Virus record (IMG/VR): IMGVR_UViG_3300023174_004928
Location: 1-34,338 of that record
Reading direction: 5' to 3' (one strand)
Source of the DNA: a virus
Length of the DNA stretch: 34,338 nucleotides
Shown here: positions 4,434 to 24,547 of the stretch, in pieces
Layout: every line of letters starts with the position of its first letter
How positions within the stretch are numbered: the first letter of the stretch is position 1
Program-made: the position numbers and the translations under genes
Notes under the pieces: model-generated
Seen by the model: the letters and a program-made list of their open reading frames with translations, nothing else
Database searches by the model: none
What the model was told of the DNA's origin: nothing

Positions 4434-5243
4434 CTAACTAGTGCCAAATCCAGGGTTTGGCCAGTTTACAGCGTTTGGATTAATTATATCAAACTTGTCT
4501 GTATCAATTGGTCTAGCACCAGGCTGATAATTTTGCATTGAATCCACTACCAAGTTGCCTAGGACTTGGTTGTTTTGCATGCTAAAATGATTGGTTCGTT
4601 GATCCTTTGCCATAAATTTTTGCATAATTTCTGCGTCTGTGCCCGTGGCTTCGCCAAGGCTGATATGCAGCAGCGGCGTAGTAAACACAATACCAGGAAG
4701 TATTTTCTTAACCATATCCACATTGTTAGGAAATGAAAAAAAATGCATTTGTGGCACATGTTGAAATGTTCTGGCTATTTCATAAAACCATTGTTCTTGC
4801 GCCCAAGATTGATAGCGCGAATCCATTAGATCCAATAACCATGTCCTGTAGGATTGGGCTGTTCTGACCTTGCTCTCGTAATATTGATCTTTATCAGCTG
4901 GCTGATAATCCGGAGCGGACATTTCTACACCTATGTGCCCATTGCCGGTGTTGTATCTCCAACAATCAGTGTGACAAAATATCATAACAGCCACATTCTC
5001 AATCCAACCAGGTTTATTCGCCATATGTCTAAATAGTTGTTCTCGACTGTAATACCAGCTGGCTCCGGTATATCCAAAACTGTAAAGATCAAGTTCAAGT
5101 TTGGCCGCAGACACATCTAGCCAACTACGCCTGGTAGGATCATTGAGTTTAATTTTTTCTTGACGAGGCCAGTGAGGCATTGCACTGGGTCCTCCCCAGG
5201 AACTGCAATAGCTGTCACCTACAAATACTATATTTTTTTTCAT
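4434..5243 (-). CDS. SGNH-fold hydrolase-like protein
   Basis: The start MKKNIVFVGDSYCSSWGG is placed at 5243 because this ATG overlaps the stop of the upstream radical SAM gene (ATGA) and puts the GDSY block I motif at residues 9-12. A 269-residue protein follows, with many aromatic residues, a VAVMIFCHTDCWRYN strand that fits the SGNH block III position, and a C-terminal TNHFSMQNNQVLGNLV segment that could supply the catalytic His. An esterase acting on a glycan is the family-level expectation. A direct substrate cannot be read from sequence. Coupling to the radical SAM gene suggests they act together. Confidence 0.65.
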   Translation of the reverse strand: MKKNIVFVGDSYCSSWGGPSAMPHWPRQEKIKLNDPTRRSWLDVSAAKLELDLYSFGYTGASWYYSREQLFRHMANKPGWIENVAVMIFCHTDCWRYNTGNGHIGVEMSAPDYQPADKDQYYESKVRTAQSYRTWLLDLMDSRYQSWAQEQWFYEIARTFQHVPQMHFFSFPNNVDMVKKILPGIVFTTPLLHISLGEATGTDAEIMQKFMAKDQRTNHFSMQNNQVLGNLVVDSMQNYQPGARPIDTDKFDIINPNAVNWPNPGFGTS

Positions 5244-6655
5244 AAGCCTGCATACCATTCAGAGAGACGCGGAAATGTTTTGACAAAATTTTGATTTCTT
5301 CGTTGATCGTATTGTAAGAAAAAACTTTTAAAATCACGACCCAATGCTGCCCTATCAATATTTTGCTGAGTACCTGCGTATTCAGTTTGCATGTGGGTTA
5401 TCTGTGTTTCTTCGTGTGGTACTTTGACCTCACGTAGATATGTAGAATATCGTTTGATGTGATCCAATTCGATGGGGCCAAACAGTTTGACAATGTCTTG
5501 TTGGCTTAAAAATTTATCAATTTCTTGACTGTACTCTAAACGCAGTATGTCCGGCAAAATTACGATATTTTGAAAGGTGGGAAAACGTACTGGATTCACC
5601 GACAACATGAGACTATTTGTGTTATTGGGATTGTGCGGTGCATTGCGCTTGCGGTCAGCCAGCCAATACAAGAACTCTGTAAATCCATCGGCACTGGCAG
5701 CACTCAGTGTGCCACATATGCCAGTCATGGCAATCACTCCAGAATTCAACACATGATCTATATTGCTGTTCCACAGTTGCCAGTCCAGGCCATCTCTCAC
5801 ATATTCAATCTTTTTCTCAGTGCATTCACCGCTGGTAAACAACCAAATTGGCACACTCACACGACTGCAAGCATCCAAGAAACGCATGAGTGTGTCTTGA
5901 TCGTAGGCCAAGTTTGTGGTCATTTCGATTCGGCAGTCGGCCTCGCCTGCATGTTCAGACAGCCAGTCCATGAGTTTCCAGGTGTGACCCGACATCATGG
6001 GTTCTCCACCGCTGATGCGAATCTGCTTGATGGTTTTGTGCAAACTCGAATCCCACCATTTGAAAAATGCGTCAGCATAGGGATTGGCATCGCCGTATTT
6101 GTAACCAACCGACTCATTACCATTGGTTTTGTAATGGTTGCGGTGATCTGTTGGCAAATTTTCGTATGGACCATTCTGTGTGATGTCACGAGCCCAGGTT
6201 GTACTAATGGCTGGAGCACAATAACTGCAACCTAGATTACATGTACGATCGGGAACAAACTCCAAGTAAGTCAAATCAAAATCGTCATCGGCACTTTGGT
6301 CAAATGCTGAATCCAATTGTTCAGAGGTTGTTTGACCGCCCCAGCTGGTCCACACACGATCACTGAGAGCTTCTGGATCAGTGTCTTCCATCACCCAACA
6401 AAATTGACAGTTTTTGGGCCTTAGTCCCTGTTGCATCATGGCACGTTCTTGTTTTTTTATGGGAGTGTTGTGCATGGCCATGGGATTGGCAGCAATGGCA
6501 TCTACATCGATGGCATGCGGCGGGTTGTGATGGCAGCTGGTGGTCCAGCCTTGACTCAACCATACACTGGCGTTGTACCATTTGGATCCACAAAAACTTG
6601 CACTCTTGGAGTCCAAATTTTCAATTTTCCATTGCTTCATTTTTTTTATATCCAT
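5240..6655 (-). CDS. Radical SAM protein with extra N-terminal cysteines (twitch type)
   Basis: A 471-residue protein. The radical SAM cluster motif CNLGCSYC (Cys139, Cys143, Cys146) is followed by ISGGEPMM at about residues 214-221 that contacts SAM. Upstream cysteines at about 22, 41, 83 and 86 (CQFCW) suggest an additional iron-sulfur cluster in a twitch-like domain. This architecture is one I associate with marine phages and annotations such as 'twitch domain-containing radical SAM protein'. Substrates of this phage group are unknown; possibilities are peptide or sugar modification. A second protein of the same class is at 28726-30306. AAGG lies 6 bases before the ATG. Confidence 0.85.
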   Translation of the reverse strand: MDIKKMKQWKIENLDSKSASFCGSKWYNASVWLSQGWTTSCHHNPPHAIDVDAIAANPMAMHNTPIKKQERAMMQQGLRPKNCQFCWVMEDTDPEALSDRVWTSWGGQTTSEQLDSAFDQSADDDFDLTYLEFVPDRTCNLGCSYCAPAISTTWARDITQNGPYENLPTDHRNHYKTNGNESVGYKYGDANPYADAFFKWWDSSLHKTIKQIRISGGEPMMSGHTWKLMDWLSEHAGEADCRIEMTTNLAYDQDTLMRFLDACSRVSVPIWLFTSGECTEKKIEYVRDGLDWQLWNSNIDHVLNSGVIAMTGICGTLSAASADGFTEFLYWLADRKRNAPHNPNNTNSLMLSVNPVRFPTFQNIVILPDILRLEYSQEIDKFLSQQDIVKLFGPIELDHIKRYSTYLREVKVPHEETQITHMQTEYAGTQQNIDRAALGRDFKSFFLQYDQRRNQNFVKTFPRLSEWYAGL

Positions 6656-9618: not shown

Positions 9619-10648
9619 CTAATACTCCTTTGTATGTTTGATTCAACCAGCGACTTATGGCATCTGCATAGTCGCTGAGTTTGGTAAGCTCGTACTTGCC
9701 ACAAAACCGTAAAAAGTGCGCACCTACCATGCCCACATCTTGATGACTGATCTGTTCACGTATGGCTTCATCTACCATGGCCTTGATCTCATCGGGCTGT
9801 GCTGTGAGATCAATTAGTGTGCGATTGCGTTCATAATCATCCAGCACCCGGTGTTCGGCTTGCTCATGATCGGACCAACGTTGCAACATGAGATTGTTCC
9901 AGGCATAGCCGCGACGATCACGATCTTCAAATGCTTCTGTCAGTCCCACCTGATTCTTAGTGCCTTTCACACGCACACCCGGATAGGCCGAGAACACATT
10001 GTCACCAGGATCACCACGCATGCACTTCATGAACAGCACCCACTTCTGATAGTCCACAGGTGGCACAAAGTTGGCATCGGCTTTGCCAACCTTGATCTTT
10101 GAGTTGCTCTCAATAGTGAATGCCAAGTTTTTGCCTTTTGCGTCTGTGACACCCGTGGTACTGAACAAGTGATCGTTGATGCCATTGTACAATTTTACAT
10201 TGGGTGCGATCAACTGCACAAAGTCTGAATCTGAACTGACAATAACGTGTTCGTCTTGGGGGTGTAATGCAATCCAACGTGCAATGACATCATCTGCTTC
10301 TGCTGTGGCACAACGGACGACACTACAGTTGGTTCGTGTAGACAAGTATTTAGTCAGCTCATCATAGGTTTCCCAGAACAGCTTGTCCTCTTCTGCTTCT
10401 GTTTCGCTCATTTGTCCACGTGCTACTGCGCGGTTTGCTTTGTAAGGTCGGTAGTGATCTTTGCGCCAGCTACGTCCCTCCAGTGCGAATACCACATGAT
10501 CAGCACCCAAATCACGTGCTACTTTGTTTGCACTCATCAAGGTCAAATGTAGGGCAAAGCCCAACTTGGTCCACGTGTCGGCAGCACGATGTGCTTGGTG
10601 CCGCGCACGGAAAAACATGTTGCTGGTGTCAATCAGTAGATAGCGCAT
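9593..10648 (-). CDS. FEN-type 5'-3' exonuclease (T4 RNase H / Pol I 5'-nuclease family)
   Basis: A 351-residue protein with the acidic metal sites of the family in order: LLIDTSN (Asp7), the helical clamp region HYRPYKANR, ATAEADDVIAR (Glu117, Asp119, Asp120), VSSDSDFVQL (Asp140, Asp142), and MRGDPGDNV (Asp213, Asp216) leading into the helix-hairpin-helix-like region. The enzyme removes RNA primers and 5' flaps during phage DNA replication. Length is close to T4 RNase H (305 aa). Its start overlaps the upstream SGNH gene by 20 bases. Confidence 0.92.
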   Translation of the reverse strand: MRYLLIDTSNMFFRARHQAHRAADTWTKLGFALHLTLMSANKVARDLGADHVVFALEGRSWRKDHYRPYKANRAVARGQMSETEAEEDKLFWETYDELTKYLSTRTNCSVVRCATAEADDVIARWIALHPQDEHVIVSSDSDFVQLIAPNVKLYNGINDHLFSTTGVTDAKGKNLAFTIESNSKIKVGKADANFVPPVDYQKWVLFMKCMRGDPGDNVFSAYPGVRVKGTKNQVGLTEAFEDRDRRGYAWNNLMLQRWSDHEQAEHRVLDDYERNRTLIDLTAQPDEIKAMVDEAIREQISHQDVGMVGAHFLRFCGKYELTKLSDYADAISRWLNQTYKGVLDDRSQTSN

Positions 10649-11348
10649 TGTGTGTTACCAAGTTGTGTTGTTTGATGTATTGTAACACATACTTGGCCCA
10701 AAAGCAATGGCCTTTGGCATCAAAATGGTGACCTTTTGTGGGCACATGTCCGTTTTGTTGTAAAATTGCGCTGTAAGTACCCTGCCGATTGTAAGGATAC
10801 ATATAACTAGTACCCCAAATATGTTGATTTTGGACATCACCAAAACTGCTGTTCCCACTGTAAAACAAGTGAGGAATACCAAGTTTTTGCAGTTCAACGT
10901 GCAAGGCCCAAATTTTTTCATGACATTCTTGTGTTTTTGCTGTCCAATCTACATCAACCACAAACTGTTTGTATCGCTGTTGTAGTTCCCTTGGTACCCA
11001 ATCCACACCTGATGCATTGACCTGATACCATGTGCCTTTGTGCAACCACTCTTCGCGTTCCCAAGTGGTCCACTGTATGACCATGAATGTGTTGCTCAAT
11101 TTGTCAGGGTTGTTGGTAATCCATTCACGTGTGGTTCTGGCAATGCGATCATTACTGGCCGCTGACTCTGCATCGCAGTATAAAGTCCAGTCAAGATCTC
11201 TTGCCAAGTGTGAGCACCAACTGGCTGCTAGGTTTAGAGGATGTGGGCGTCGATCTATACCAGCCCGGCCGTCATCCACTGCAAATGCATCCGGAACAAC
11301 TGCTTCAGCAGCCGCGGTGTGACTGCAACCATTTGCGTACAGTATCAT
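10629..11348 (-). CDS. SGNH-fold hydrolase-like protein
   Basis: A 239-residue protein with block I motif MILYANGCSHTAAA (Ser in GCSHT), followed by SAASNDRIARTT for block II and MVIQWTTWEREEW for block III. The end carries HVPTKGHHFDAKGHCFWAKYV, a His and Asp pair that fits block V. The GCSHT variant is common in phage SGNH proteins. An O-acetyl esterase or transferase role on a glycan is expected by family but not shown. It is coupled (ATGA) to the cytidylyltransferase-like gene, linking it to sugar or polyol activation. Confidence 0.7.
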   Translation of the reverse strand: MILYANGCSHTAAAEAVVPDAFAVDDGRAGIDRRPHPLNLAASWCSHLARDLDWTLYCDAESAASNDRIARTTREWITNNPDKLSNTFMVIQWTTWEREEWLHKGTWYQVNASGVDWVPRELQQRYKQFVVDVDWTAKTQECHEKIWALHVELQKLGIPHLFYSGNSSFGDVQNQHIWGTSYMYPYNRQGTYSAILQQNGHVPTKGHHFDAKGHCFWAKYVLQYIKQHNLVTHNALSTD

Positions 11349-11836
11349 CGCGGACTGGGACCACCTGTGTCATCTGCACCCACTGGTTCCCATTCTTCTA
11401 TTTTCCGTTTCAAAAGTTCGGCCTGTGCCACACGTTGTCGCAATTCACTGCTGCTGAATGAATGATCACGACCATTGAAATGTAGTTCAATATCACGTTT
11501 GTGGCAAATTTCACGACCAGTAAATTCCCGGCCTTCATACTCCACGCCCAGGATGCGCACGTCAATGGGCAGGATCAACAACAGGTCTTCCAAATCTTTC
11601 TCTGTGTTGTACACCCAAACTTCGTCCACATACTTGCAACCTATCAGTTGCAGTTGTCGTTCCACAATGCTTTGTACCGGGCGATTCTTGTTGGGACGAT
11701 CCAGGGTAGGATCATTTTGTAATGCGCAAATCAAGTAGTCGCATTCTTCCCGGGCCTCACGCAACATGGCAATGTGGCCAGCGTGTAGCAAATCAAATGT
11801 TGAGGCAGTAAAGCCCACACGTCTTCCGTCCATCAT
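11345..11836 (-). CDS. Cytidylyltransferase-like nucleotidyltransferase
   Basis: The start MMDGRRVGF at 11836 is chosen for the AAGGA site 7 bases upstream; an earlier frame opening lacks one. In the 163-residue protein, GFTASTFDLLHAGHIAML (residues about 8-25) contains the HAGH nucleotide-binding motif of the HxGH superfamily, and HSFSSSELRQRV near residue 135 matches the STSELR-like motif that binds the triphosphate. Relatives include glycerol-3-phosphate cytidylyltransferase and HldE/RfaE-type sugar nucleotidyltransferases. It probably activates a polyol or sugar phosphate. Substrate is not resolved. Confidence 0.8.
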   Translation of the reverse strand: MMDGRRVGFTASTFDLLHAGHIAMLREAREECDYLICALQNDPTLDRPNKNRPVQSIVERQLQLIGCKYVDEVWVYNTEKDLEDLLLILPIDVRILGVEYEGREFTGREICHKRDIELHFNGRDHSFSSSELRQRVAQAELLKRKIEEWEPVGADDTGGPSPR

Positions 11837-11846
11837 ATCAGTATCC

Positions 11847-12245
11847 TTAACTAATTTCGGTGCGTCCGTCACCAATGTCTCTGGCACGAACATATTGTGA
11901 GCCTGAATTGCGAATGGCCTGTTCTTGTTCCCAGGTTTCCATTACCACATGTCTGCACACATTTTGAAACCACCGATCCACAATGTCTGAGTCTGCGTCT
12001 GTGGGCTTCATCATGTAGCCGGCCTTGACCAGTCTGGCAATGAATATTTCATTCCAATCCAGTTCAAATGCACCTTGATGCAGGTTGGCAGGATCAATGT
12101 CCATGCTCAAGATGGCCACATAAGGTTCATTGTTTTCTGTGGCCTTCTGCTTGGCAGTTTTTTCAGGTGCTTTAGGCACACGAATAACTTTTTCTTTTTC
12201 CTCTTTCACAGGAGGCGTTTTCTTTTTTGTTAACCAATCCCACAT
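11847..12245 (-). CDS. Conserved T4-like marine phage protein (MWDWL type), unknown function
   Basis: The start MWDWLTKKKTPP at 12245 is chosen because GGAG lies about 8 bases upstream and because relatives I recall begin MWxWL. A longer start at 12269 overlaps queE. The 132-residue protein has a basic, Lys-rich linker, then EPYVAILSMDIDPANLHQGAFELDWNEIFIARLVKAGY, a hallmark of a cyanophage and marine phage hypothetical family. The C-terminal third is helical. Function unknown. Confidence 0.8.
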   Translation of the reverse strand: MWDWLTKKKTPPVKEEKEKVIRVPKAPEKTAKQKATENNEPYVAILSMDIDPANLHQGAFELDWNEIFIARLVKAGYMMKPTDADSDIVDRWFQNVCRHVVMETWEQEQAIRNSGSQYVRARDIGDGRTEIS

Positions 12246-12265: not shown

Positions 12266-13141
12266 TCATGCCAGGCTTGCATATAAATGCATCTGCAAGT
12301 TCAATTTGAGTCCATGCTCAACACAGTAGCGACCGGTGTATTCGTGATTGGCTTGATTGGCTGTCAAGTTCAACAAACCAGGTTCCCAGAAACTGATGAC
12401 CTCATCCACTGTGCTACGTTCAGCCATGGTGATTGTGCCTTTTTCTGCTCGCAACAGTTTGATCCGTTGTGGGAAATCGTTGTACACATTCATTGGACTG
12501 CAATAGATTTCTTTGTGAGGATTAGTACGTTTCCACTCATGTGCCCAGTCAGGAATGTTGTTGTATGGACTGGCCGTGTCTGATGACATGACAAATTTCA
12601 AACAGTCTGCACGATCCAAGATGGTCTTGCTGGGTGCAAGATACTTGGTAGCAACACCGTTCTTCTCCATGCACTTGGGACTGCATACCAGTGTGACACC
12701 CTCGGGTACTGGTGTCTCTGGAATGCCATTGCTTTCAACTTGTACAGCCTTGAATCTTGGCAGTTGACGACTCATGAATTCTGTAATGTTTTCTTGTAGC
12801 AAAGGTTCGCCGCCGGTCATTACCAATACCACACCTGGATAGTGTTTGACTTCACTGCTTGCCCATGCGGGAGTTGCTTTGCCTTGTTTGTGCCAAAAAT
12901 CATTGACGGCATCATGCATGTTGTTTTCTAGTTGATCAAATGTCAACCAGTCACCATCATCAAAGTATGTGTCACAAAAACTGCAATCCAAATTGCACTT
13001 GGCCAGGCGTATGAACAGTGCAGGCTGACCTGCATACGGTCCTTCACCTTGCAGTGTGAAGAACATACTGGTCACAAACAAACTGTCTGCGGGTGCGTCC
13101 TTAAAATACTTCTTGCCAATAATTTCGTTAGTACCAAACAT
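12266..13141 (-). CDS. queE: 7-carboxy-7-deazaguanine synthase (radical SAM)
   Basis: A 291-residue QueE. It makes 7-carboxy-7-deazaguanine (CDG) from 6-carboxytetrahydropterin. FTLQGEGPYAGQPALFIR (about 28-45) is the QueE signature. The cluster-binding CNLDCSFCDTYF gives Cys49, Cys53 and Cys56, the spacing shared with most radical SAM enzymes. VMTGGEPLLQ follows at about 108-116 and the C-terminus is NLQMHLYA, again typical of the family. It is longer than E. coli QueE (223 aa) because of an insert around residues 75-100. It lies in the long operon below queD and, with folE, queD and the DpdA-like gene, points to 7-deazaguanine in phage DNA. Confidence 0.96.
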   Translation of the reverse strand: MFGTNEIIGKKYFKDAPADSLFVTSMFFTLQGEGPYAGQPALFIRLAKCNLDCSFCDTYFDDGDWLTFDQLENNMHDAVNDFWHKQGKATPAWASSEVKHYPGVVLVMTGGEPLLQENITEFMSRQLPRFKAVQVESNGIPETPVPEGVTLVCSPKCMEKNGVATKYLAPSKTILDRADCLKFVMSSDTASPYNNIPDWAHEWKRTNPHKEIYCSPMNVYNDFPQRIKLLRAEKGTITMAERSTVDEVISFWEPGLLNLTANQANHEYTGRYCVEHGLKLNLQMHLYASLA

Positions 13142-13153
13142 GTTGCATTGCCT

Positions 13154-13858
13154 TTATAATCTTTTTACTTGAGTCATTCCCGAACGACGAGGATCTTTAC
13201 GTAGATTGATGCTTTGTTCATGCATTTTAACACGAGTTTGTGCTTTTGTCACCCAACCTGGCAACACTGCGTCCAAATAGGCCAAATGCTCCGCAGGACT
13301 GGGATGTGGGTCAGCACCAGGTTTTGGCCAGTTATTTAAAAACACAGTTTTATCGTACCCGGGCAAAATGCTGTCTAACACATCACTGTACAGTCGCATG
13401 GCATCTCTATGCAAACTCTCATTATCATTTGGCGCAGGTCTTGCCATGAGTTCTACCATGCTGAGAAAACGCCAGGATAATCCAGGACGATTTTCCAACA
13501 GTGTTTTCACAGCTTTGATATAAGCAAGATCTCTTATCAAATAACCTCGCTCGTCATGGTGATCCCTGAGATATTTAGGTTCGTAGATAGGGCAATTAAA
13601 AATATTGCCCAGTGTGTGCCATCGACCACCTATGTATCGATCATCTCTGTTGAAATCAGTCCAACACACTATCACAGTATCACTAGCGCCAAACTGATGC
13701 CATTGATCTGCTTCCATTACACTATTGAAGATATAGTGATTGCCACCGCCGGCCTGCCCCCAGTTTTCAAAGTAATCAAATTCTGGTGCCAAACAATCAG
13801 CCCAGGTGCTCCAACGATAGTTGGTAAAACTGCACCCAAACGCAAACAATCTTTTCAT
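13154..13858 (-). CDS. SGNH-fold hydrolase-like protein
   Basis: A 234-residue protein with block I MKRLFAFGCSFTNYRW (Ser in GCSFT), block II QAGGGNHYIFNSV, block III DTVIVCWTDFNRDDRY and a clear block V, ADPHPSPAEHLAYLDAVLPGW, whose Asp and His complete the expected Ser-Asp-His triad. It is therefore the most complete SGNH protein of the four. Expected role is de-O-acetylation or acyl transfer on a sugar. It lies between queE and the sugar epimerase, in the glycan part of the operon. Confidence 0.75.
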   Translation of the reverse strand: MKRLFAFGCSFTNYRWSTWADCLAPEFDYFENWGQAGGGNHYIFNSVMEADQWHQFGASDTVIVCWTDFNRDDRYIGGRWHTLGNIFNCPIYEPKYLRDHHDERGYLIRDLAYIKAVKTLLENRPGLSWRFLSMVELMARPAPNDNESLHRDAMRLYSDVLDSILPGYDKTVFLNNWPKPGADPHPSPAEHLAYLDAVLPGWVTKAQTRVKMHEQSINLRKDPRRSGMTQVKRL

Positions 13859-13864
13859 TTTGTA

Positions 13865-14755
13865 TCAGGATAAAATCAGTCTGATACCTTGTTCAAAAGA
13901 CATGGGTTCATAGTCAGGCATGATGCTACGCAGTTTGCTGATGTCTGGACGTCGGTTGGTGACTGATCCAGGCATGCTGGGCAACTGTTCAAACTCTGCG
14001 TCAGGATGGCCCATCACTGCGGCAATGGTCTTGACTGCGTCACCAATTGAAATTTCACAATCATTGCCCACATTGATCACTTCGCGATTGCAATTTTCAG
14101 CAATAAAAATACTGGCACGAGTGGCATCACTCACATGACAGAAACTGCGTGTTTCTTGTGCACCAATAACAGAGAACACACCCTTGCGTATCTTGCTGAT
14201 TTGATCGCCCAAGAAATGTCCCGGCTTGCTGTTCTCGCCGTACACATTGAAATATCTAATGATCATGTAGGGCAAGTCAGAGTTTACTAGATAATTCTCA
14301 GAAGTGATTTTGGCCAGTCTATAACTCCAACGAGCATTGTGAATGTTTTTGATCAACACATCAGTGTGTTCGGGCACAGGTGACACTGTGTCATCTGCCA
14401 CAATCTCTGAACTGGATGCATACACCAGGCGTGTTAGATTCTTGCACTTACGAGCAAAATTAAAAATGTTTAGGTCACATACAAAGTTATTTTCCAACAC
14501 CTTGTTGGGCATGTTGTAAAAATTAGTAGTACCGTTGATGGCACCGTAGTGATAGATATAGTCAAAGTCTGTGGGCAGGCTGTTGATGGCATCAACGTTG
14601 TTCAAATCCATGGGATACCATTCACTGCAACTGGGAATGGTTGTGCTACGACTGTGATTGTCCACAGCATACACAGTGTGTCCGTCATTGATCAACTGTC
14701 GACAAAATTCTGTGCCCAACAAACCTGAAGCACCGGTCACTAGTATTTTAGCCAT
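13865..14755 (-). CDS. NAD-dependent sugar epimerase/dehydratase (extended SDR)
   Basis: A 296-residue extended SDR. The start MAKILVTGASGLLG at 14755 lies inside the end of the upstream gene (ATGGCTAA overlap), which places the Rossmann motif GASGLLG at residues 8-14. The active site is SSSE near 114-117 with Tyr145 and Lys149 in YRLAK. IRYFNVYGENSKPGHFLGD and VSDATRASIF match nucleotide-sugar 4-epimerase and 4,6-dehydratase relatives. The substrate would be a nucleotide-activated sugar used for glycan assembly. Distinguishing epimerase from dehydratase needs phylogeny. Confidence 0.85.
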   Translation of the reverse strand: MAKILVTGASGLLGTEFCRQLINDGHTVYAVDNHSRSTTIPSCSEWYPMDLNNVDAINSLPTDFDYIYHYGAINGTTNFYNMPNKVLENNFVCDLNIFNFARKCKNLTRLVYASSSEIVADDTVSPVPEHTDVLIKNIHNARWSYRLAKITSENYLVNSDLPYMIIRYFNVYGENSKPGHFLGDQISKIRKGVFSVIGAQETRSFCHVSDATRASIFIAENCNREVINVGNDCEISIGDAVKTIAAVMGHPDAEFEQLPSMPGSVTNRRPDISKLRSIMPDYEPMSFEQGIRLILS

Positions 14756-15524
14756 TTTTGACTCTTTCGTTGTCGTCAAATGCGGCCTGAATCATTTCAA
14801 ACTCCAGGCCAAGTTTTTTAATCAAGTTGTTCAGTGCCAGTGTATCTTTAGGCAAGCAATGTCCGCCAAATGCTCGAAATTTTTCATTGACCAACAAGTA
14901 GTGAGGGTTAATACAATCGCGTTTGATGATGGCATTGTAAACGCTGTTGTAATCGGCACCGATACGTTGGCAAACTTCGTAGATGATATTGCCAAACGTC
15001 ACAGTGACCGCATGATGCACATTGTTGAAGTACTTGATAACTTCTGCTTCAATGGGCGTGACTTGAACTACGTTTCGTGGAATGAAGCCATGTATCTTTT
15101 TAACCAACTCAAAATCTGCATCGTTGTAAACTCCAATGACCAATACATCATGATTGTAAATAAAATCTGCTAGAGCAGTCTTGGCCCGCAGAAATTCAGG
15201 CACATTACACATACGCAACATGGGATAGGTCAATTTCATACGATCAGTAGTTCCAGGAACCACTGTGCTTTTGATTCCCACCAGTCCTCGGTAGTTTGCA
15301 TCACTGAGTTCTTTGCAAACTTTTTCTACAATGCTGGTGTCGCAGTCACCTTCAACAGTGCTGTCTGTGGGCACACTCAAGAATACACATTCGGTATCCA
15401 ATATGTCTTCAAGTCTAGAGCCTTCAATTTTTGGATCATAAAAACTCATGTCATGTCCTTGTCCTTCAAGTCCATCATACACTGCTGAGCCCACAGTACC
15501 TTTTCCAATAACTCCTACTTTCAT
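14748..15524 (-). CDS. Short UDP-glucose/GDP-mannose dehydrogenase-like protein
   Basis: A 258-residue protein, about 60% of the usual 400-450. The N-terminal NAD domain (MKVGVIGKGTVGSAVYD), the VFLSVPT strand, NVPEFLRAKTALADF and the helix with EAEVIKYFNN are present. The catalytic Cys223 lies in FGGHCLPKDTLA. The protein ends soon after, so the C-terminal UDP-binding domain is missing. The reaction in the full family is oxidation of a UDP-sugar C6 to a uronic acid. Whether this short form is active, or uses another substrate, cannot be read. It overlaps the neighbouring epimerase. Confidence 0.8.
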   Translation of the reverse strand: MKVGVIGKGTVGSAVYDGLEGQGHDMSFYDPKIEGSRLEDILDTECVFLSVPTDSTVEGDCDTSIVEKVCKELSDANYRGLVGIKSTVVPGTTDRMKLTYPMLRMCNVPEFLRAKTALADFIYNHDVLVIGVYNDADFELVKKIHGFIPRNVVQVTPIEAEVIKYFNNVHHAVTVTFGNIIYEVCQRIGADYNSVYNAIIKRDCINPHYLLVNEKFRAFGGHCLPKDTLALNNLIKKLGLEFEMIQAAFDDNERVKNG

Positions 15525-16120
15525 ACAGTCTCCTTAATTTTGTAATCCATATCTATGCAGCGACTTTGTGTCATGTCACATAAATTCACAATCTCTCTTG
15601 CAACATCAATTGGTTCCAGACAGATGTCTGGGTTTGGGTGTGGCTTGTGTGCTACCATTTTGGTATGCACATGAACTGGGTTGATCAATCCCAGTTTCAA
15701 ATTGTCGCTGACAAATTCACTGGCGCCTTGCCACGTGTTGAACAACGCTGCCTTGCTGGCGCTGTACAAAATGAAGTTTTTACGCCCTTGCTTGTAGGCA
15801 CTGGATCCCAGCATGACAAATCTTACTGTCTTGGTGGGTGGATTTTTGATGTAGTAATTGATCACTGACCAATTGCTTTTTAAATTTACATTGAACACAG
15901 TGTCGTAATCTAGTGTGTTGTCTCCAAAAACTCCGGCACAATTAACAATCACATCTGCGTCGGCCATGGCCAATACCATACCAATACGCATGTCACTAGT
16001 AGTGTCGTCAAGATTGATCGTTTCTCGACCAACCGCTACTATGTGATATTGTCGTTCTAGAAGTTGTATGGCGCTTTTGGCAATGTCACTGTTGGCGCCA
16101 ATGATCACGGCTGTTTTCAA
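15521..16120 (-). CDS. Short-chain dehydrogenase/reductase
   Basis: A 199-residue classical SDR: cofactor motif VIIGANSDIAKSA at the N-terminus, NCAGVFGDN near residues 60-68, catalytic Ser in MLGSSAYKQG and the YSASK active-site motif. The length is slightly under the usual 250, mainly at the C-terminus. It would reduce or oxidise a small carbonyl substrate with NAD(P)H. Its ATGA overlap with both neighbours (the UDP-sugar dehydrogenase-like gene and E1 beta) suggests it acts on the product of the thiamine-diphosphate enzyme pair. Confidence 0.88.
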   Translation of the reverse strand: MKTAVIIGANSDIAKSAIQLLERQYHIVAVGRETINLDDTTSDMRIGMVLAMADADVIVNCAGVFGDNTLDYDTVFNVNLKSNWSVINYYIKNPPTKTVRFVMLGSSAYKQGRKNFILYSASKAALFNTWQGASEFVSDNLKLGLINPVHVHTKMVAHKPHPNPDICLEPIDVAREIVNLCDMTQSRCIDMDYKIKETV

Positions 16121-17169
16121 AACGGTCCTTTGAATTCAACAGATTTTAATTCATCCTTGGCAGTTGGATACCAATGCTGAGCATGGCCTTTAACAAGATC
16201 ATTTGCAGCGGCAGCGATGGATTGTCCTGTGGGATAAAAATGGTCTTCTAAAGAAGGAGTGGTAGGACATGGTGTTGGTGCGAATCCTAAACGTTTGGCC
16301 CGCCAGACTGTGTCACCCAAACGTTCATGCAAACTGGCAATGATTTCACTGCCGGCACCACATGTAGTCCAAGCATTGTCAACTACCACAAGATTCTTTG
16401 TTTTTCGTACACTGGCTTCGATGGTGTCTATGTCAATGGGCGACAACCAAATTGGATCAATAACTTCTGCGCTGATTCCAATGTCTGCAAGATAATTTTG
16501 TGCTCGCATGCATTCTACTGCCTGATAGCTGATACCCACTAAGGTCACATCCTGTCCTGGAACAAGTACTCGCGCTCGGCCAGGAGGCACCAACAATTCG
16601 CCCTCGGGCACATGGCCAGTGCTGTAGTACAACATTCTGTGTTCAACCATGACCACAGGATTGTTGTCACGAACGGCATATTCCAAACATCCTTTGGCAT
16701 CATATGGAGTGCTAGGTGCACAGATTTTGATGCCGGGTATGTTCATAAACAAGGGATAAAGACTTTGGGTGTGTTGCGATCCGTTGCCCCAACTTTTGCC
16801 AATCAGCATGCGCACCACCATGGGTACATTTTGCATACCGCCGGACATGGCATGTGTCTTGGCAGCCACGTTGATCAATTGGTTCATGGCCAGAGTAGCA
16901 AAGTCCATGCGATAGTGATTGTGTATGGGACGCAGCCCGGCCAAGGCCATGCCAACAGCCACACCAGTCATGCCATCTTCAGCCAATGGAGTTCCGAAAC
17001 ATCGGTCAGAACCAAATTCTTCAGCCAAGCCTTTGGTTGTGCCAAATGTGCCCTTGGGGTCATCAACATCAAGACCAAACAGCACAACATTGCTGTCACG
17101 AGACATTTCAATAGCAGTGGCTTCTCGAATGGCTTCTACATAAGATATAGATCGATTATTTGTAGACAT
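16117..17169 (-). CDS. Thiamine-diphosphate 2-oxoacid dehydrogenase-like E1 beta subunit
   Basis: A 350-residue protein of the transketolase-pyrimidine/C-terminal fold: SYVEAIREATAIEMSRD, then TPLAEDGMTGVAVGMALAG with the conserved Glu64 that activates the thiamine ring, RMDFATLAMNQLIN, and a C-terminal domain with DPIWLSPID. It matches pyruvate/acetoin dehydrogenase E1 beta (usually 325-350 aa). The beta subunit supplies the pyrimidine half of the active site. It overlaps E1 alpha by 14 bases and the SDR by 4. No E2 or E3 gene is present, so a standard dehydrogenase complex is unlikely unless it uses host parts. Confidence 0.92.
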   Translation of the reverse strand: MSTNNRSISYVEAIREATAIEMSRDSNVVLFGLDVDDPKGTFGTTKGLAEEFGSDRCFGTPLAEDGMTGVAVGMALAGLRPIHNHYRMDFATLAMNQLINVAAKTHAMSGGMQNVPMVVRMLIGKSWGNGSQHTQSLYPLFMNIPGIKICAPSTPYDAKGCLEYAVRDNNPVVMVEHRMLYYSTGHVPEGELLVPPGRARVLVPGQDVTLVGISYQAVECMRAQNYLADIGISAEVIDPIWLSPIDIDTIEASVRKTKNLVVVDNAWTTCGAGSEIIASLHERLGDTVWRAKRLGFAPTPCPTTPSLEDHFYPTGQSIAAAANDLVKGHAQHWYPTAKDELKSVEFKGPF

Positions 17170-18097
17170 ATTTTAACAGTTCCTGTTGCGGTGGGAATTC
17201 ACTAGACTCAGCAAACACAACTGCCTGAGCAATCTTGTGTTCAATCTCTTGATCAATTTGTGCGCGAACGGCAGGGTCCAATTGATTGCCCAGGCGTTCC
17301 ACTTCGTCTTGAGCTCGATACGGAGCCACTTCATCCTCAGTGCGATATCCCAATTTAAAATCTTCACCAGGACCAACGTGTTCTAGCCAACGACTGGTGG
17401 CAATTTCCAAAAACTGCGGACCTGCACCGTTGCGTATTTTTTCAACAAGATCCCCGGCAGTGTTGTAAATTGTTTCTATGTTGTATTCTTTGATGTGTGT
17501 CGATTCAACACCAATGGCTCTGGCCCGGGCACAGATATCAAGCACTGCTTGTCGTTGACTGCGTTTGGTATGTATGGCCAGCTCATTGTTTTCGCACACA
17601 AACAAAATAGGTAATTTTTTAAGTGCAGCAAAATTCAAACTTTCCGACACCACACCTTCTTCGGTGGCACCATCACCAAAGAAACTCACAACTATCTGAC
17701 GGGATTTTTTAAGTTTGAGAGCATAGGCATAGCCCACAGCATTTGGCACACTTGATGCCACAATAGCAGTGGTAGACATCACGTTGTGTTCAAGATCAAC
17801 CAAGTGCATGCTGCCACCCCAGCCACGAGCACAACCAGAAATTTTTCCATACAGTTCGGCCATCATGGCATTGAGGTCGCCACCTTTGGCCAGATACAGT
17901 GGATGGCTGCGGTAGTAGCCAAACACAACATCTTGTTTTTGCAGGTGTTCGCACACGCCCACCTGAATGGCTTCGTGGCCAATGCCCAGGTGTACTGGAC
18001 TTTTGATTTTGTCTGTGGGATATATTTTAGCAACAATTTCTTCCACTCGCCGGATTGTTTTTATTGACCGGTATAATTTATTCGTATCCATACTCAT
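17156..18097 (-). CDS. Thiamine-diphosphate 2-oxoacid dehydrogenase-like E1 alpha subunit
   Basis: The start MSMDTNKLYRSIK at 18097 sits one base after the stop of the upstream gene. The 313-residue protein contains YYRSHPLYLAKG, GCARGWGGSMHL and the thiamine-diphosphate motif GDGATEEGVVSESLNFAALK (Gly-Asp-Gly at 141-143, Asn170-Asn171 at the end). These are E1 alpha hallmarks of pyruvate, acetoin and branched-chain dehydrogenases. Length is near the family norm (about 320-360). With E1 beta it would decarboxylate a 2-oxoacid and pass a two-carbon-type unit to an acceptor. Regulatory phosphorylation loops of mitochondrial forms are absent. Confidence 0.92.
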   Translation of the reverse strand: MSMDTNKLYRSIKTIRRVEEIVAKIYPTDKIKSPVHLGIGHEAIQVGVCEHLQKQDVVFGYYRSHPLYLAKGGDLNAMMAELYGKISGCARGWGGSMHLVDLEHNVMSTTAIVASSVPNAVGYAYALKLKKSRQIVVSFFGDGATEEGVVSESLNFAALKKLPILFVCENNELAIHTKRSQRQAVLDICARARAIGVESTHIKEYNIETIYNTAGDLVEKIRNGAGPQFLEIATSRWLEHVGPGEDFKLGYRTEDEVAPYRAQDEVERLGNQLDPAVRAQIDQEIEHKIAQAVVFAESSEFPPQQELLKYVYK

Positions 18098-18098
18098 A

Positions 18099-18935
18099 TT
18101 ATTTTCCACTTTCGGTCCGAATAGGAAATTGTACTTGTTGTTTGTTGATGTCATTGGCTGCTAATTTTTCCCAAGGATCTTGTCGTCCTTCCAGTACATT
18201 TTTAAAAAATTCTGTACTGCTGGGGTCAACCGAGTGCATGTATGTGGCCAATGTTGCACAATCTTTCATTCGTTGGTCTCGTTTGGACTGATGATGGAAG
18301 TCTCTAGGGTCATTTGGATTGCCTTCGAAACACACACGATTTTGATGGGTAGCATCTGGACTTTTACCAGTCAAGTCAGCACGATCGTGGATCACTGAAA
18401 CATCAATTATTTCTACAATATCCAACATATATGCTATTTGACTGAGTTCAGCATCGGGCATTTGATGACGGCTCAATGTACCCAATAGGTCATACCATTT
18501 GTGTGGCACAATGGGAAAGATACTGTAAGGATGTTCGTTGTGTGTGTGTACTTTTAGTAATTTGAATTGACCATTGTACTCAGTAATTTTAGTGTCCCAG
18601 CCCTGAGTGTCCATGGTTGCATCATCACTCCAAAACAAATACCAATCAGCAGATTGTTGTTTGGCCAACCAATTGTAATACACATTCAAGTTTGCATATC
18701 CCATGGGCTCAAAAATCATGGCACTGTATTCAATGTCATGTTCGGACAACCAAGGTTGTATTTCTTGACTGAAATAGTCAATACCCTTGGCATCATCGCG
18801 GTCAAACCCAATCACGAGATTTATGCGATCTTTGTTGTCTGCTAGATCAAACAGTGTTCGAATACTGCGAAACAGTATGTCGGTTCTGGCCCGCGTGGGC
18901 AGTAGTACGGAGATGTCGAAATCATGTGTGTTCAT
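18099..18935 (-). CDS. GT-A family glycosyltransferase-like phage protein
   Basis: A 278-residue protein. DISVLLPTRARTDILFRSIRTLF at the N-terminus is the first strand and helix of GT-A (GT2-like) enzymes, followed by INLVIGFDRDDA and WYLFWSDDATMD, where the double Asp could bind metal and nucleotide-sugar. I recognise the FDRDD variant from phage glycosyltransferases. The target is unknown (host LPS, phage structure, DNA). No good ribosome binding site is seen; it lies 60 bases after queD and is presumably read from the queD promoter. Confidence 0.7.
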   Translation of the reverse strand: MNTHDFDISVLLPTRARTDILFRSIRTLFDLADNKDRINLVIGFDRDDAKGIDYFSQEIQPWLSEHDIEYSAMIFEPMGYANLNVYYNWLAKQQSADWYLFWSDDATMDTQGWDTKITEYNGQFKLLKVHTHNEHPYSIFPIVPHKWYDLLGTLSRHQMPDAELSQIAYMLDIVEIIDVSVIHDRADLTGKSPDATHQNRVCFEGNPNDPRDFHHQSKRDQRMKDCATLATYMHSVDPSSTEFFKNVLEGRQDPWEKLAANDINKQQVQFPIRTESGK

Positions 18936-18995: not shown

Positions 18996-19493
18996 TTACG
19001 CAAATAAATCTTCATTCCATTCTCTATGACCTTCTCTAAAAGCCATGTTTGATTGTGTTTCACGCACTTCCACTCGGTAGCACCACAAGCGTTTGGCCTC
19101 TCCTGGACCCCACATGTCTGGAATGTACACACCATTCACATACTTGTACAATTGGTCAGCCAGTCCTTCACAGCCTAGTCGGGGCAATATGGTCAGCTTG
19201 GCAATGTTTCTGCGTTGCATTTCTAAATACAGTTCCAGTTCAGGATCGTCTTCGGCCACAAGCAATGTGTGATCGAATTGACTTTCCAACACTGATTTGA
19301 GTTCTTTGAGACCGCCATAGTCGGCGGCCCAATTACGTGCGTCCAAGTTGTCAGTGCCAAAGTAAAACTTCATTGAGAAGCTATATCCATGAATCAGGTT
19401 GCAATGGCTGTCTGCCCGCCACTGACGATATGCGCATGGAAATGCATCGTGGTATTCTTTGGTCGAAGTGTATTTGTATGTTATTGGTGTCAT
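18996..19493 (-). CDS. queD: 6-carboxy-5,6,7,8-tetrahydropterin synthase (QueD subfamily)
   Basis: A 165-residue protein of the QueD/PTPS family, which converts dihydroneopterin triphosphate to 6-carboxytetrahydropterin. CAYRQWRADSHCNLIHGYSF (about 20-39) is the FRQWRA...SHC...HGY signature of the proteobacterial-type QueD subfamily; Cys31 is the expected catalytic thiol and His35 a zinc ligand, with Tyr37 where E. coli QueD has His. DYGGLKELK, FDHTLLVAEDDPEL and VEVRETQSN follow in family order. The gene has its own promoter and an AGGAG site, and precedes queE on the same strand. Confidence 0.93.
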   Translation of the reverse strand: MTPITYKYTSTKEYHDAFPCAYRQWRADSHCNLIHGYSFSMKFYFGTDNLDARNWAADYGGLKELKSVLESQFDHTLLVAEDDPELELYLEMQRRNIAKLTILPRLGCEGLADQLYKYVNGVYIPDMWGPGEAKRLWCYRVEVRETQSNMAFREGHREWNEDLFA

Positions 19494-20566: not shown

Positions 20567-21265
20567 TTATTCCTTTCTACCGCCAAACAACTGCAATAAA
20601 TTCAAGAACAAGTTGATAAAGTCCATGTACAAAGTCAATGCGCCACGTACTTCCACAGCCGCACTGGTTTCAACTGAGATCTCTTCGCGAATCTTTTGAG
20701 TGTCGTAGGCAGTGAGTCCCAGGAAGATTATGATGGCCAAGGCACTGATAACCATCTGCATCACAGTTGAGCCAATGAATATGTTCACAATGCTGGCAAT
20801 CACAATAGCAATCAAGCCCACAAACATAAACCGGCCTAAACTATCAAGGCTCTGTTTGGTAAAGTAGCCATAGCCACTCATTACCGCAAACAAGATGGCG
20901 GCACCCATGAATGCACTCACAATCGATCCCATGGTAAACACCGCAAAGATCATTGAAAAGCTCAGGCCCATCAAGGCTGCAAATCCATGCAAGCACAACT
21001 GTGCCACAGGTTTTGTGGGGTTATTGGCTAGGATCATGCTGACACCAAATATGGCTGCCAAGGGTGCAAATATCACAATCCATTTCAACACACCGGTAAA
21101 AAAGAATTGCAACAGTTCTGGAGTGGTGCCAATCCAGTAACTGACCAGCATGCTGACCAGCACAGCTATGGTCATATGACCATACACACGGCCCATGGCC
21201 GAATTAATGTCGGCTGCTGAACGATAATTGATAACATCATTGTCATTGTAGTTTGCACCAAACAT
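20567..21265 (-). CDS. Bax inhibitor-1/YccA family membrane protein
   Basis: A 232-residue protein with a short soluble N-terminus and about seven hydrophobic helices from residue 30 onward. The C-terminal part LGLTAYDTQKIREE and ALTLYMDFINLFLNLLQLFGGRKE is the hallmark of the BI-1/YccA family. Bacterial members are inner-membrane proteins, some of which bind FtsH (YccA) or act as pH-dependent calcium leak channels. In a phage it might protect phage proteins from FtsH or alter membrane ion balance; that is inference. The AAGGAG site is strong. Confidence 0.92.
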   Translation of the reverse strand: MFGANYNDNDVINYRSAADINSAMGRVYGHMTIAVLVSMLVSYWIGTTPELLQFFFTGVLKWIVIFAPLAAIFGVSMILANNPTKPVAQLCLHGFAALMGLSFSMIFAVFTMGSIVSAFMGAAILFAVMSGYGYFTKQSLDSLGRFMFVGLIAIVIASIVNIFIGSTVMQMVISALAIIIFLGLTAYDTQKIREEISVETSAAVEVRGALTLYMDFINLFLNLLQLFGGRKE

Positions 21266-21624: not shown

Positions 21625-21653
21625 AGTATACACAATATTGCCTGACATGTCAA
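21625..21653 (-). promoter_or_regulatory. Sigma-70-type promoter of the HIT/Bax-inhibitor unit
   Basis: TTGACA (21653-21648), 17-base spacer, TATACT (21630-21625). The -35 box begins at the end of the FG-GAP lipoprotein gene, so the promoter lies immediately after its stop codon. A TAGGAG site follows before the ATG at 21598. Confidence 0.85.
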
Positions 21654-23053
21654 TACTTCTTGAAAGTATATTTAGAACTTGTGACGAAAAAGGATGTTTG
21701 ACTGTTGCTGAATTTAGAGTACACAAAGGCAAATGTGTTTCCAAACCCAACTGGAATTATCGGGCCGTTGGCTCCTATTCCATCAATTGTGCTTTGCGAC
21801 GATCTTGTAAATGTACCAGAGTCATTGTTTAACCAGGCCTGGTTGGCTTTTCCTGAAGAAAAATCAGGATTACCTAACCACAGATCTAGGATGCTATCCC
21901 CGTCTAAATCTATGGTCACTGGTGTATATGAAATTGATACATTAGTAGGATAATTAGCCATTGCAGTATCGGTTGTGTCGTCAAACATCCAATTGCCTCG
22001 ATTGATTAATACTTGCACCCTGCCTTCGTCGGTCCATCTATTGTTCCTCGATTGGGCGTTGGGCCTACTGAGTACTAATAAATCTAATTTACCATCACGA
22101 TTCAAGTCTGTTGTAACACACCGCACATCATGACTGACTTCCTTGGTTGGATCCGTTGTGTTTCTATCTAAAACAGGAACAGGCAAAGTATGACTGGCTA
22201 CCGGAGATAACGAACTATCCAATTCAAAAATCACAGTGTCTGCAATCGGCGCCTGTGTAGGATCAACTGCAAGATCAGTGATGACCACTTGCTTTCTGCC
22301 TGTGTTGTTGAAATCACCAACACATACACCAGATCCATTCATCCATAGTCCTGGGCTGGTATTTAAATTATACAAGTGATCATGGAATGTAAAGTTTCCC
22401 CGTCCATTGTTGAGCCACTTTTGCCCGCGACTGTTGATGATATCCAAGCTGCCGTCATTGTTAAGATCGGCAACTGTTGTGTTGTGAGACCAGCTCTCTC
22501 CTGCAAGCACACTGCGACTGTGTGTCAGTCCTGGACGGCTTAAAAATACTGCACCAACTCCACGGAATTCGTTACCAGACATATCTACAAAAGGAAAGTC
22601 TTTTGTATACAATGAAACAATGTCGTCGATCCCATCACCGTTAAAGTCTGCTATATCGATATTTCCAGGTGTGGTAGCATTGTCGCCAAGAATTTTGGCA
22701 GTCACGTCAGCACTGGTTCCGTCGCTGTTGACTTTTAAGATGCGAATAGGTGCATCTGGATTTGGTATGGGTGCAGATTCAATATTACCACTGGCAAGGT
22801 AAATTCCACTTACTACAATATATTTTCCGCCAACAGCATCAAATTTTGCCGGCATAAACATTGTGCTGTAATTTAATCCTGCAGGTGTATTCAGTATTAG
22901 CGATGCGCTAACCGAAGTTGGAGTCGGATCGGTGGCCGCCGAAGTTGGTGGGCCACCCCCACCCCCACCCCCACCCCCACCCCCACCCCCACAGGCAGTC
23001 AAGGCGCCAATCATGCCAGCCACCAAAGTCCAAAGTATTGTATGTTTCATCAT
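21650..23053 (-). CDS. Lipoprotein with FG-GAP/VCBS beta-propeller repeats
   Basis: A 467-residue exported protein. The N-terminus is a lipoprotein signal peptide: hydrophobic run to LTAC with Cys21 as the lipidated residue, followed by 13 Gly. Five blade-like repeats carry calcium-binding DxNxDG loops at about residues 136, 196, 247, 316 and 382 (DFNGDGIDD, DLNNDGSLD, DFNNTGRKQ, DLNRDGKLD, DLDGDSILD). This points to an integrin-alpha-like propeller, seen in bacterial surface and sugar- or protein-binding proteins. It has its own promoter. In a phage it may coat the host surface, block superinfection or bind a surface partner; that is inference. It is AT-richer than its neighbours and could be an acquired gene. 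Confidence 0.85.
   Translation of the reverse strand: MMKHTILWTLVAGMIGALTACGGGGGGGGGGGGGPPTSAATDPTPTSVSASLILNTPAGLNYSTMFMPAKFDAVGGKYIVVSGIYLASGNIESAPIPNPDAPIRILKVNSDGTSADVTAKILGDNATTPGNIDIADFNGDGIDDIVSLYTKDFPFVDMSGNEFRGVGAVFLSRPGLTHSRSVLAGESWSHNTTVADLNNDGSLDIINSRGQKWLNNGRGNFTFHDHLYNLNTSPGLWMNGSGVCVGDFNNTGRKQVVITDLAVDPTQAPIADTVIFELDSSLSPVASHTLPVPVLDRNTTDPTKEVSHDVRCVTTDLNRDGKLDLLVLSRPNAQSRNNRWTDEGRVQVLINRGNWMFDDTTDTAMANYPTNVSISYTPVTIDLDGDSILDLWLGNPDFSSGKANQAWLNNDSGTFTRSSQSTIDGIGANGPIIPVGFGNTFAFVYSKFSNSQTSFFVTSSKYTFKKY
22955..22990. repeat. Six tandem copies of ACCCCC inside the lipoprotein gene
   Basis: Six perfect ACCCCC hexamers in a row (with partial copies at each side) encode the poly-glycine run after the lipidated Cys. 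Each unit adds two Gly, so copy-number change keeps the frame. On the coding strand it reads GGGGGT repeats, which could fold into a G-quadruplex. Confidence 0.9.
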
Positions 23054-23803: not shown

Positions 23804-24547
23804 TTATCTTGGTGCAAACTCTTGTTGCAGTTTGATATTGTCCATGAACTCTTTTTTAACACTGTCATCCGTTTTAAAAGCACCACGTAGCACAGTGGTC
23901 TGTGTTAGACTTGAGTGTGCCATGATGCCGCGATTCTCACAGCATCCATGCACTGCTTGAATATACACACCCACATCCTTTGACCCAGTTGCGGCCATGA
24001 TCTCATTGGCAATGTCTATGCACAGTTCTTCCTGTAAAGTACCACGCCTAGCACACCATTGAGCAATGCGAGTATACTTAGATAGACCAATGAGCTTGTT
24101 GGCAGCGATGATTCCAATATAGGCGACCCCACTAACTGGTTGATGATGATGACTGCACATACTGCGAAGTTCACTGCGTACAACCAACATGCCTTCATAA
24201 CGGTCTGCTGAATCATTTGGAAATGCTGTTGCGTCTGGTGGGGGTTCATATCTTCCTGCCATTACTTCGTTGAAATACATTTTGGCCAAGCGCCGTGCTG
24301 TGCCCTTTGAATTAGGATCCGTCTCGCGATCAATCAGCAGTGCATCCAGCACACCTTCAAACGCCACAGTGGCTTCGGCAATGAGTTTTTCTTTTACAGC
24401 TTCGCTCATGTATTCGCTGACATTATCGTTGGCCCAAAAGCGTCGACCTCGTGCCTGCATTTGTTCCCTAAGCACTTGTGATAAATTTTTGCTAGTACTC
24501 ACGGTTTGTTCTTCGTCATTGCTGATATATACTTTGTCGTAACCCAT
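23804..24547 (-). CDS. folE: GTP cyclohydrolase I
   Basis: A 247-residue FolE, which converts GTP to dihydroneopterin triphosphate, the first step to 7-deazaguanines. The zinc site SMCSHHHQPVSG gives Cys131 and His134, with the third ligand in HGCCENRGI (about 200-208). GIIAANKLIGLSKYTRIAQW is the substrate-loop region. SKGTARRLAKMYFNEVMAGRY is the conserved helix. The N-terminal 40 residues are extra relative to short bacterial forms. It has its own promoter and an AGGAG site, and pairs with queD and queE elsewhere in the window. Confidence 0.96.
   Translation of the reverse strand: MGYDKVYISNDEEQTVSTSKNLSQVLREQMQARGRRFWANDNVSEYMSEAVKEKLIAEATVAFEGVLDALLIDRETDPNSKGTARRLAKMYFNEVMAGRYEPPPDATAFPNDSADRYEGMLVVRSELRSMCSHHHQPVSGVAYIGIIAANKLIGLSKYTRIAQWCARRGTLQEELCIDIANEIMAATGSKDVGVYIQAVHGCCENRGIMAHSSLTQTTVLRGAFKTDDSVKKEFMDNIKLQQEFAPR

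Follow-up and report, generated by a model that had tools for sequence, protein, structure and literature searches.

Several actinobacterial antibiotic pathways, namely those of aldgamycin, kibdelomycin, paulomycin, avilamycin, and everninomicin, contain pairs of E1-type subunits that attach a pyruvate-derived two-carbon unit to keto sugars or have been proposed to do so (PMC12247030; PMC4753412; PMC4425429). In vitro, KbDH-alpha/beta accepted pyruvate as its sole donor and coupled it to ketones, sugar analogues among them (PMC12247030). AviB1/AviB2 of avilamycin and Pau11/Pau12 of paulomycin are likewise counted among the branched-sugar pairs of the E1 type (PMC4753412; PMC4425429), and in everninomicin biosynthesis the decarboxylase EvdS6 makes uridine diphosphate (UDP)-4-keto-xylose, which the E1-like EvdU5/EvdS3 is proposed to use as acceptor (PMC10338323). 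Here we analyze an E1-alpha/E1-beta pair, with thiamine diphosphate (ThDP) as cofactor, encoded on the IMG/VR virus record IMGVR_UViG_3300023174_004928. This stretch of 34,338 bases (hereafter, the window) is a fragment that covers 34 kb of phage sequence. The pair is best read as a phage-borne member of the E1-alpha/E1-beta branch that serves nucleotide-sugar and natural-product biosynthesis, rather than as part of an oxo-acid dehydrogenase complex.

Both subunits are encoded on the minus strand. E1-alpha (17156..18097; 313 aa from the Met at 18097) matches Pfam E1_dh (2.9e-52), and E1-beta (16117..17169; 350 aa) matches Transket_pyr (1.4e-36) and Transketolase_C (4e-27), with pyruvate dehydrogenase (PDH) E1-beta subunits as its relatives in the PDB (about 1e-60). 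The longest open reading frame for E1-alpha runs from 17156 to 18154, and its 5' stretch overlaps the adjoining glycosyltransferase gene. The start at 18097 is the correct one, because its ATG lies one base past the TAA stop of the glycosyltransferase gene and because relatives in related phages begin at the equivalent of about Met20 of the longest frame. E1-alpha keeps the cofactor motif GDGATEEG...CENN and the His and Tyr-Arg positions (VHLGIGHEA, YYRSH), while E1-beta keeps the catalytic Glu (TPLAED) and the His position (SQHTQS). Judged from these sequences, the two proteins are intact heteromeric E1 subunits that retain the ThDP motif and the catalytic residues. An earlier sequence-only reading of the window had called the pair full length, with the cofactor motif and activating Glu, and had started E1-alpha at 18097; the Pfam matches, conserved catalytic positions, and starts of the relatives agree with it on each count. 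It had also seen no E2 or E3 beside the pair, and a motif scan indeed found no lipoyl-type E2 or redox E3 motif in the window or in the related viral loci, although either could be encoded on a part of the phage genome outside this 34-kb fragment.

Phylogenies of both subunits separate the phage pair from PDH E1. The tree set comprised 80 bacterial loci found by profile search, together with further E1 genes taken from nine of these genomes. The phage E1-alpha sequences formed one clade (support 100) within a large clade that spans many phyla and lies away from PDH and acetoin E1-alpha. The nearest sequences came from two betaproteobacterial bins (L020 and L021; 61% identity), with support of only 81/55 for these as the exact sister in the mixture-model tree. 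The E1-beta tree agreed, placing the same two betaproteobacterial-bin pairs adjacent. An E1 pair on a Streptomyces plasmid (L130) fell inside the wider clade and carries the E1-beta tail described below. Forcing the phage sequences to group with PDH-type E1-alpha was rejected on the mixture-model tree (approximately unbiased (AU) test, p-AU = 0.0005). Phylogenetically, the phage pair belongs to the sugar-pathway E1 branch and not to PDH E1, a separation on which the sequence-only reading had depended. Capture of a housekeeping PDH or acetoin E1 by the phage was ruled out by the trees and the AU test.

The tail and several internal motifs distinguish this family. E1-beta has a C-terminal extension ending in [FY]xGP[FY] in 98 loci (some overlapping), nearly all of the complete family members; the exceptions are contig-end truncations, frame breaks, or distant members (e.g., L132 and L008). 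In the complete E1-beta sequences of PDH and acetoin type that were included, the chain stops about 25 residues earlier; the phage tail ends in EFKGPF. A motif H-x-R-x-D-F replaces the FMTFNF segment of PDH E1-beta, in which His85, Arg87, and Asp89 do not vary across 53 sequences; Trp127-Gly128 is also invariant, and SWG-GxxH is a family signature. The E1-alpha loop of the family, mostly [ED]H[VC]GP..D..(G)YR, is three residues longer than GHSMSDP of PDH and reads EHVGP..D..LGYR in the phage. The beta tail, HxRxDF, SWG-GxxH, and the alpha-loop insertion are all absent from PDH and Aco E1 sequences. A structural model of E1-beta (predicted local distance difference test (pLDDT) 89) best matched PDH E1-beta 1w85_B; the tail lay outside the aligned part of this match and had low confidence in the monomer.

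These features bear on the proposal that the pair is an E1 of the housekeeping pyruvate or acetoin dehydrogenase kind, working with host E2 and E3 to alter host pyruvate metabolism; the sequence-only reading had likewise raised rewiring through host E2. The retained catalytic residues would suit such a role, and the best NCBIfam matches were PDH E1 models, albeit all below their cut-offs (TIGR03182, 269.5 vs. 393.85 bits for alpha; 259.9 vs. 321 bits for beta). In PDH, E1-beta contacts E2 through its C-terminus and through an acidic residue of the LDAP segment. The phage E1-beta lacks this acidic residue, and its absence, together with the extended C-terminus, argues against E2 binding, though not decisively. 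With the AU result and the location of the pair in a sugar cassette also opposing it, rewiring of host pyruvate metabolism through a host E2 is disfavored, and we give it the slimmest chance of the explanations considered.

The surroundings of the bacterial relatives support a sugar-pathway role for the whole clade. We scanned within 8 kb of the 80 bacterial loci (L020-L099) by tblastn with reference neighbors identified by Pfam (DegT aminotransferase, nucleotidyltransferase, GHMP kinase, SIS isomerase, B12/radical SAM protein, and others). At least one sugar-pathway reference gene was found near the E1 pair in 74 of the 80 loci (epimerase/dehydratase in 51, DegT in 45, GHMP kinase in 39, and nucleotidyltransferase in 39), and DegT lay immediately 3' of E1-beta in 38 of the 70 loci with enough sequence. 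Other E1 loci of the same genomes, with 8-kb flanks where available, showed sugar neighbors in none of seven cases and lipoyl or E3 motifs in four of seven; lipoyl-like strings occurred just twice among the 80 family loci, both of them weak. A widespread bacterial locus, seen in many phyla, combines GHMP kinase, E1-alpha, E1-beta with the FxGPF tail, DegT, epimerase, and nucleotidyltransferase genes, with the SIS isomerase and B12/radical SAM genes present in some.

The heptose-type genes near the bacterial pairs (SIS isomerase, GHMP kinase, nucleotidyltransferase) would also suit a different reaction, in which an aldehyde sugar gains a ketol unit, from a hydroxylated 2-oxo acid such as hydroxypyruvate or through split-transketolase-like activity, and its chain is extended to a heptose- or octose-type sugar. 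The phage itself encodes a nucleotidyltransferase of the HldE C-terminal or glycerol-3-phosphate cytidylyltransferase type (11345..11893, minus strand; Pfam CTP_transf_like, 6.5e-12; phrog heptose-1-phosphate adenylyltransferase, 9e-33). It is retained in related phages and possibly acts in the same sugar route as the E1 pair. In addition, cyanophages S-SM2 and P-TIM68 carry a fused E1-like protein, annotated as transketolase, among carbohydrate kinase, nucleotidyltransferase, and epimerase genes, and P-TIM68 also has a phosphoheptose isomerase. Against chain extension, the fold and sequence of the phage pair are those of E1, and the described E1-type sugar enzymes are confined to two-carbon branches from pyruvate (PMC12247030). 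A split transketolase was rejected as the identity of the pair, at only about 20% identity. Chain extension is therefore an unlikely reading, but one with real points in its favor.

In the window, the E1 genes lie within a cassette ordered, on the minus strand, as glycosyltransferase, E1-alpha, E1-beta, short-chain dehydrogenase/reductase (SDR), short UDP-glucose-dehydrogenase-like gene, and epimerase-like extended SDR. The overlaps are 14 nt between E1-alpha and E1-beta, 4 nt between E1-beta and the SDR, and 4 nt between the SDR and the dehydrogenase-like gene. The coordinates, overlaps, and Pfam matches substantiate the coupling described in the sequence-only reading, i.e., an overlapping pair joined to an SDR, a short dehydrogenase, and an epimerase, with a glycosyltransferase upstream. 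That reading also hinged on conservation of this order in related phages, and the five genes from E1-alpha to the epimerase do occur in the same order in eight further IMG/VR contigs (L002-L007, L010, L016), at 57-99% identity. Some of these contigs were extracted twice, and L010 begins within E1-alpha. The glycosyltransferase precedes the five genes wherever upstream sequence is covered.

The cassette genes are, as judged from substitution rates, under purifying selection. Compared with the two nearest relatives, dN/dS was 0.03-0.10 for the E1 pair, the SDR, and the dehydrogenase-like gene, and about 0.2 for the glycosyltransferase. Identity of the epimerase-like gene to those of L003, L005, and L010 is only 64-67%, though their E1-beta and dehydrogenase genes are about 95% identical to those of the window, and it reaches 80% for that of L006. 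This mismatch with E1-beta points to allele exchange at the cassette end; the glycosyltransferase, at the opposite end, likewise shows greater divergence (54-59%). The conserved order bears as well on another possibility, in which the pair produces acetoin, acetaldehyde, or an acyloin as a free small molecule and the sugar genes lie beside it only because phage genes happen to be packed that way. The distant relationship of the pair to acetoin-type E1 enzymes is in line with such a role. The gene overlaps, the five-gene order kept in nine contigs, and the sugar contexts shared by bacterial homologues of many phyla all count against it, and we think it improbable.

The neighboring genes indicate what a sugar route might involve. 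The SDR (15521..16120, minus strand; 199 aa; Pfam adh_short, 1.9e-10) conserves the GANSDIA, NCAG, Ser, and YxxxK positions; its matches to PDB SDRs were weak, and no relatives were found among annotated phages. The short nucleotide-sugar 6-dehydrogenase-like protein (14748..15524, minus strand; 258 aa) has the NAD and central domains by Pfam, matches guanosine diphosphate (GDP)-mannose and UDP-glucose dehydrogenases in the PDB (2e-24 to 2e-21), and has invariant catalytic Lys, Asn, Cys (GGHCLPKD), and Asp residues. UDP-glucose-dehydrogenase-like proteins also occur in 41 annotated phage records, and several of these matches cover the short phage protein end to end. The extended SDR (13865..14779, minus strand), of the epimerase/dehydratase/decarboxylase type (Pfam Epimerase, 1e-38), has UDP-glucuronate decarboxylase as its nearest solved relative (PDB 2b69, 1.2e-21). 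Its SSSE, YRLAK, and RRPDI motifs, which provide an S-S-E triad (cf. the TSE-type triad of the decarboxylase), YxxxK, and an arginine region, are invariant in six phages, and most of them are also common to 4,6-dehydratases. The GT-A-type glycosyltransferase (18099..18935, minus strand), directly upstream of E1-alpha, matches a phrog glycosyltransferase profile (4e-5); its model (pLDDT 77.5) gave TarP as the best Foldseek match (2.8e-9), followed by other glycosyltransferases, at a TM-score of about 0.5.

From this gene content and the described systems, we favor, with moderate confidence, a function in which the E1 pair transfers a two-carbon unit to a keto-sugar nucleotide. Decarboxylation of a small 2-oxo acid by the pair, with pyruvate as the likeliest candidate, would give a ThDP-bound two-carbon carbanion. 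By attacking an activated sugar at its keto carbon, this carbanion would yield a C-branched (acetyl) sugar. The adjoining SDR could reduce the branch ketone to a hydroxyethyl group, and the adjoining glycosyltransferase could transfer the branched sugar. The extended SDR may supply the 4-keto acceptor, perhaps with the dehydrogenase-like protein carrying out a prior oxidation, i.e., along a route from UDP-glucose through UDP-glucuronate to a UDP-4-keto-pentose, as proposed for eurekanate in everninomicin. A UDP-4-keto-pentose is suggested as the acceptor because the neighbors resemble UDP-glucose dehydrogenase and UDP-glucuronate decarboxylase, and we put it forward tentatively. The phage may use the branched sugar to give the host surface, its virion, or its DNA an unusual sugar. 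Transfer to a nucleotide sugar followed by SDR reduction had been one hypothesis of the sequence-only reading; literature precedents and fitting neighbors now speak for it, while we only infer the donor, acceptor, and product, as well as the order of the steps and the end use of the sugar.

Several points weigh against this reading. The dehydrogenase-like protein lacks the C-terminal nucleotide-binding domain of true UDP-glucose dehydrogenases, and the extended SDR, which also resembles 4,6-dehydratases, reaches only about 80 bits against UDP-glucuronate decarboxylase. Another acid might serve as donor in place of pyruvate. The bacterial relatives accompany DegT and heptose-type genes rather than the SDR and dehydrogenase of the phage, so the sugar product may differ. 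Finally, the phage pair is likened to the actinobacterial pairs, which are of the alpha-ketoacid-dehydrogenase type (aKADH2), through literature descriptions and not through a shared tree.

The DegT genes bring in a further alternative, namely that the keto group of the branch is transaminated rather than reduced, giving an amino-branched sugar. The frequent position of DegT directly after E1-beta in the bacterial loci (38/70) is in keeping with this, as is the branch of kibdelomycin, which is transaminated (PMC12247030), and a small DegT-like gene is present in the phage (24590-25195, minus strand). This gene lies about 6 kb from the pair and encodes a product of only 201 aa, roughly half of the customary 370 or so, and the reductase next to the pair is an SDR; the odds of transamination in the phage seem small. 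As a separate observation, the counterparts of this protein in related phages are also about 200 aa long (66-92% identity), and the Lys in SFGHGKPLSIGRGG resembles the pyridoxal phosphate lysine. Reduction of a two-carbon branch remains our preferred reading. A more ambitious version, which we find plausible but do not expect on balance to hold, is that the lineage encodes a complete route to a C-branched (hydroxyethyl) nucleotide sugar, centered on an E1-type two-carbon transferase with a conserved C-terminal tail of its own, whose product is attached to the virion, the host surface, or modified DNA, and that the same tail-bearing family serves an undescribed amino- or branched-heptose pathway that is widespread among bacterial phyla.

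The remainder of the window indicates its source. An RNase H-type exonuclease shares 45-47% identity with counterparts in jumbo phages XaC1 and PA5oct, and clamp-like (33023-33745) and TGT-like (31102-32628) genes, both on the minus strand, match neighboring genes of PA5oct-like jumbo Pseudomonas phages at 34-36%. The matched phages have genomes of ~287 kb. By these gene similarities, the window is of phage origin and its source is a distant relative of the PA5oct-like phages; the clamp-like and TGT-like matches suggest that the source genome is probably far larger than 34 kb. Contamination or assembly error was ruled out by the occurrence of the same cassette in nine contigs and by the PA5oct-like replication genes on the window. 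The window also encodes three tRNA genes. QueE-like (12266-13141), QueD/PTPS (18996-19493), GTP cyclohydrolase I (23804-24547), and the TGT-like gene, whose product has a DSGGFQ motif and no Pfam match, all on the minus strand, likely constitute a 7-deazaguanine modification set for DNA or RNA. Other genes include a Bax inhibitor-1 family membrane protein (20567-21265, minus strand) and an FG-GAP repeat protein that starts like a lipoprotein and contains a run of glycines (21650-23053, minus strand). Four proteins resemble SGNH hydrolases, with a GDS/GCS motif near the start (3668-4354 on the plus strand; 10629-11348, 4434-5258, and 13154-13858 on the minus strand); two of them match DUF6071 weakly, and such multiplicity is unusual.

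Among annotated phages, the best E1 matches were host-like records or the fused cyanophage protein, and the two-subunit, tail-bearing form with its five-gene cassette was found neither there nor in the papers searched. The E1 genes of Acinetobacter phage MD-2021a (an aco operon beside aroC) and the E1 pairs on short (2-5 kb) Listeria, Enterococcus, and Staphylococcus ‘phage’ contigs were put aside as probable host DNA. L134 is among the public ‘phage’ records whose E1 genes look like host DNA. The literature searched contained no relevant account of phage E1 genes or of E1 genes with DegT and heptose genes.

Compared with known systems, the phage pair most closely parallels the aKADH2 pairs (AviB1/AviB2, Pau11/Pau12, EvdU5/EvdS3, and KbDH-alpha/beta). 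These likewise consist of E1-alpha and E1-beta without E2 or E3 in sugar clusters, and their pathways include a keto-sugar-forming SDR, with the branch later reduced in several. The aKADH2 pairs sit in actinobacterial antibiotic clusters, from which two-component E1-type branching enzymes have so far been described, whereas the phage pair lies in a cassette with a short dehydrogenase and a glycosyltransferase. The bacterial loci L020-L099 share the clade, the E1-beta tail, and the E1-alpha loop with the phage (up to 61% identity for alpha and 71% for beta), but carry DegT, kinase, and isomerase genes in place of its SDR, short dehydrogenase, and UDP-glucuronate-decarboxylase-like SDR. If our reading is correct, carbon-carbon bond chemistry on sugars by E1 pairs would be far commoner, extending to a phage cassette and many bacterial phyla. 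The E1 enzymes of PDH, branched-chain, and acetoin complexes (1ni4, 1w85, 1um9, AcoAB) share the fold, the ThDP motif, and the catalytic His and Glu with the phage pair (about 36% identity for beta), which differs in its separate clade, altered alpha loop, added beta tail, and lack of E2 and E3 nearby. The [FY]xGP[FY] tail, HxRxDF, and EHVGP loop would separate the family from genes annotated as pyruvate dehydrogenase, and caution against naming such phage E1 genes auxiliary genes of pyruvate metabolism. The ‘transketolase central region’ proteins of cyanophages S-SM2 and P-TIM68 (phrog_34187, a profile that both window subunits match) also place an E1-like ThDP protein in a nucleotide-sugar cluster. 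They differ in being single chains of about 380-400 aa, with the halves fused and shortened, that fall far off in the tree. YerE of yersiniose biosynthesis shares the proposed chemistry, i.e., transfer of an acetyl group from pyruvate to a 4-keto sugar followed by reduction, but is described as a single-polypeptide flavoprotein of another ThDP subclass. The chemistry proposed here is already known, and the cyanophage proteins provide a distant precedent for E1-like proteins encoded by phages within sugar clusters.

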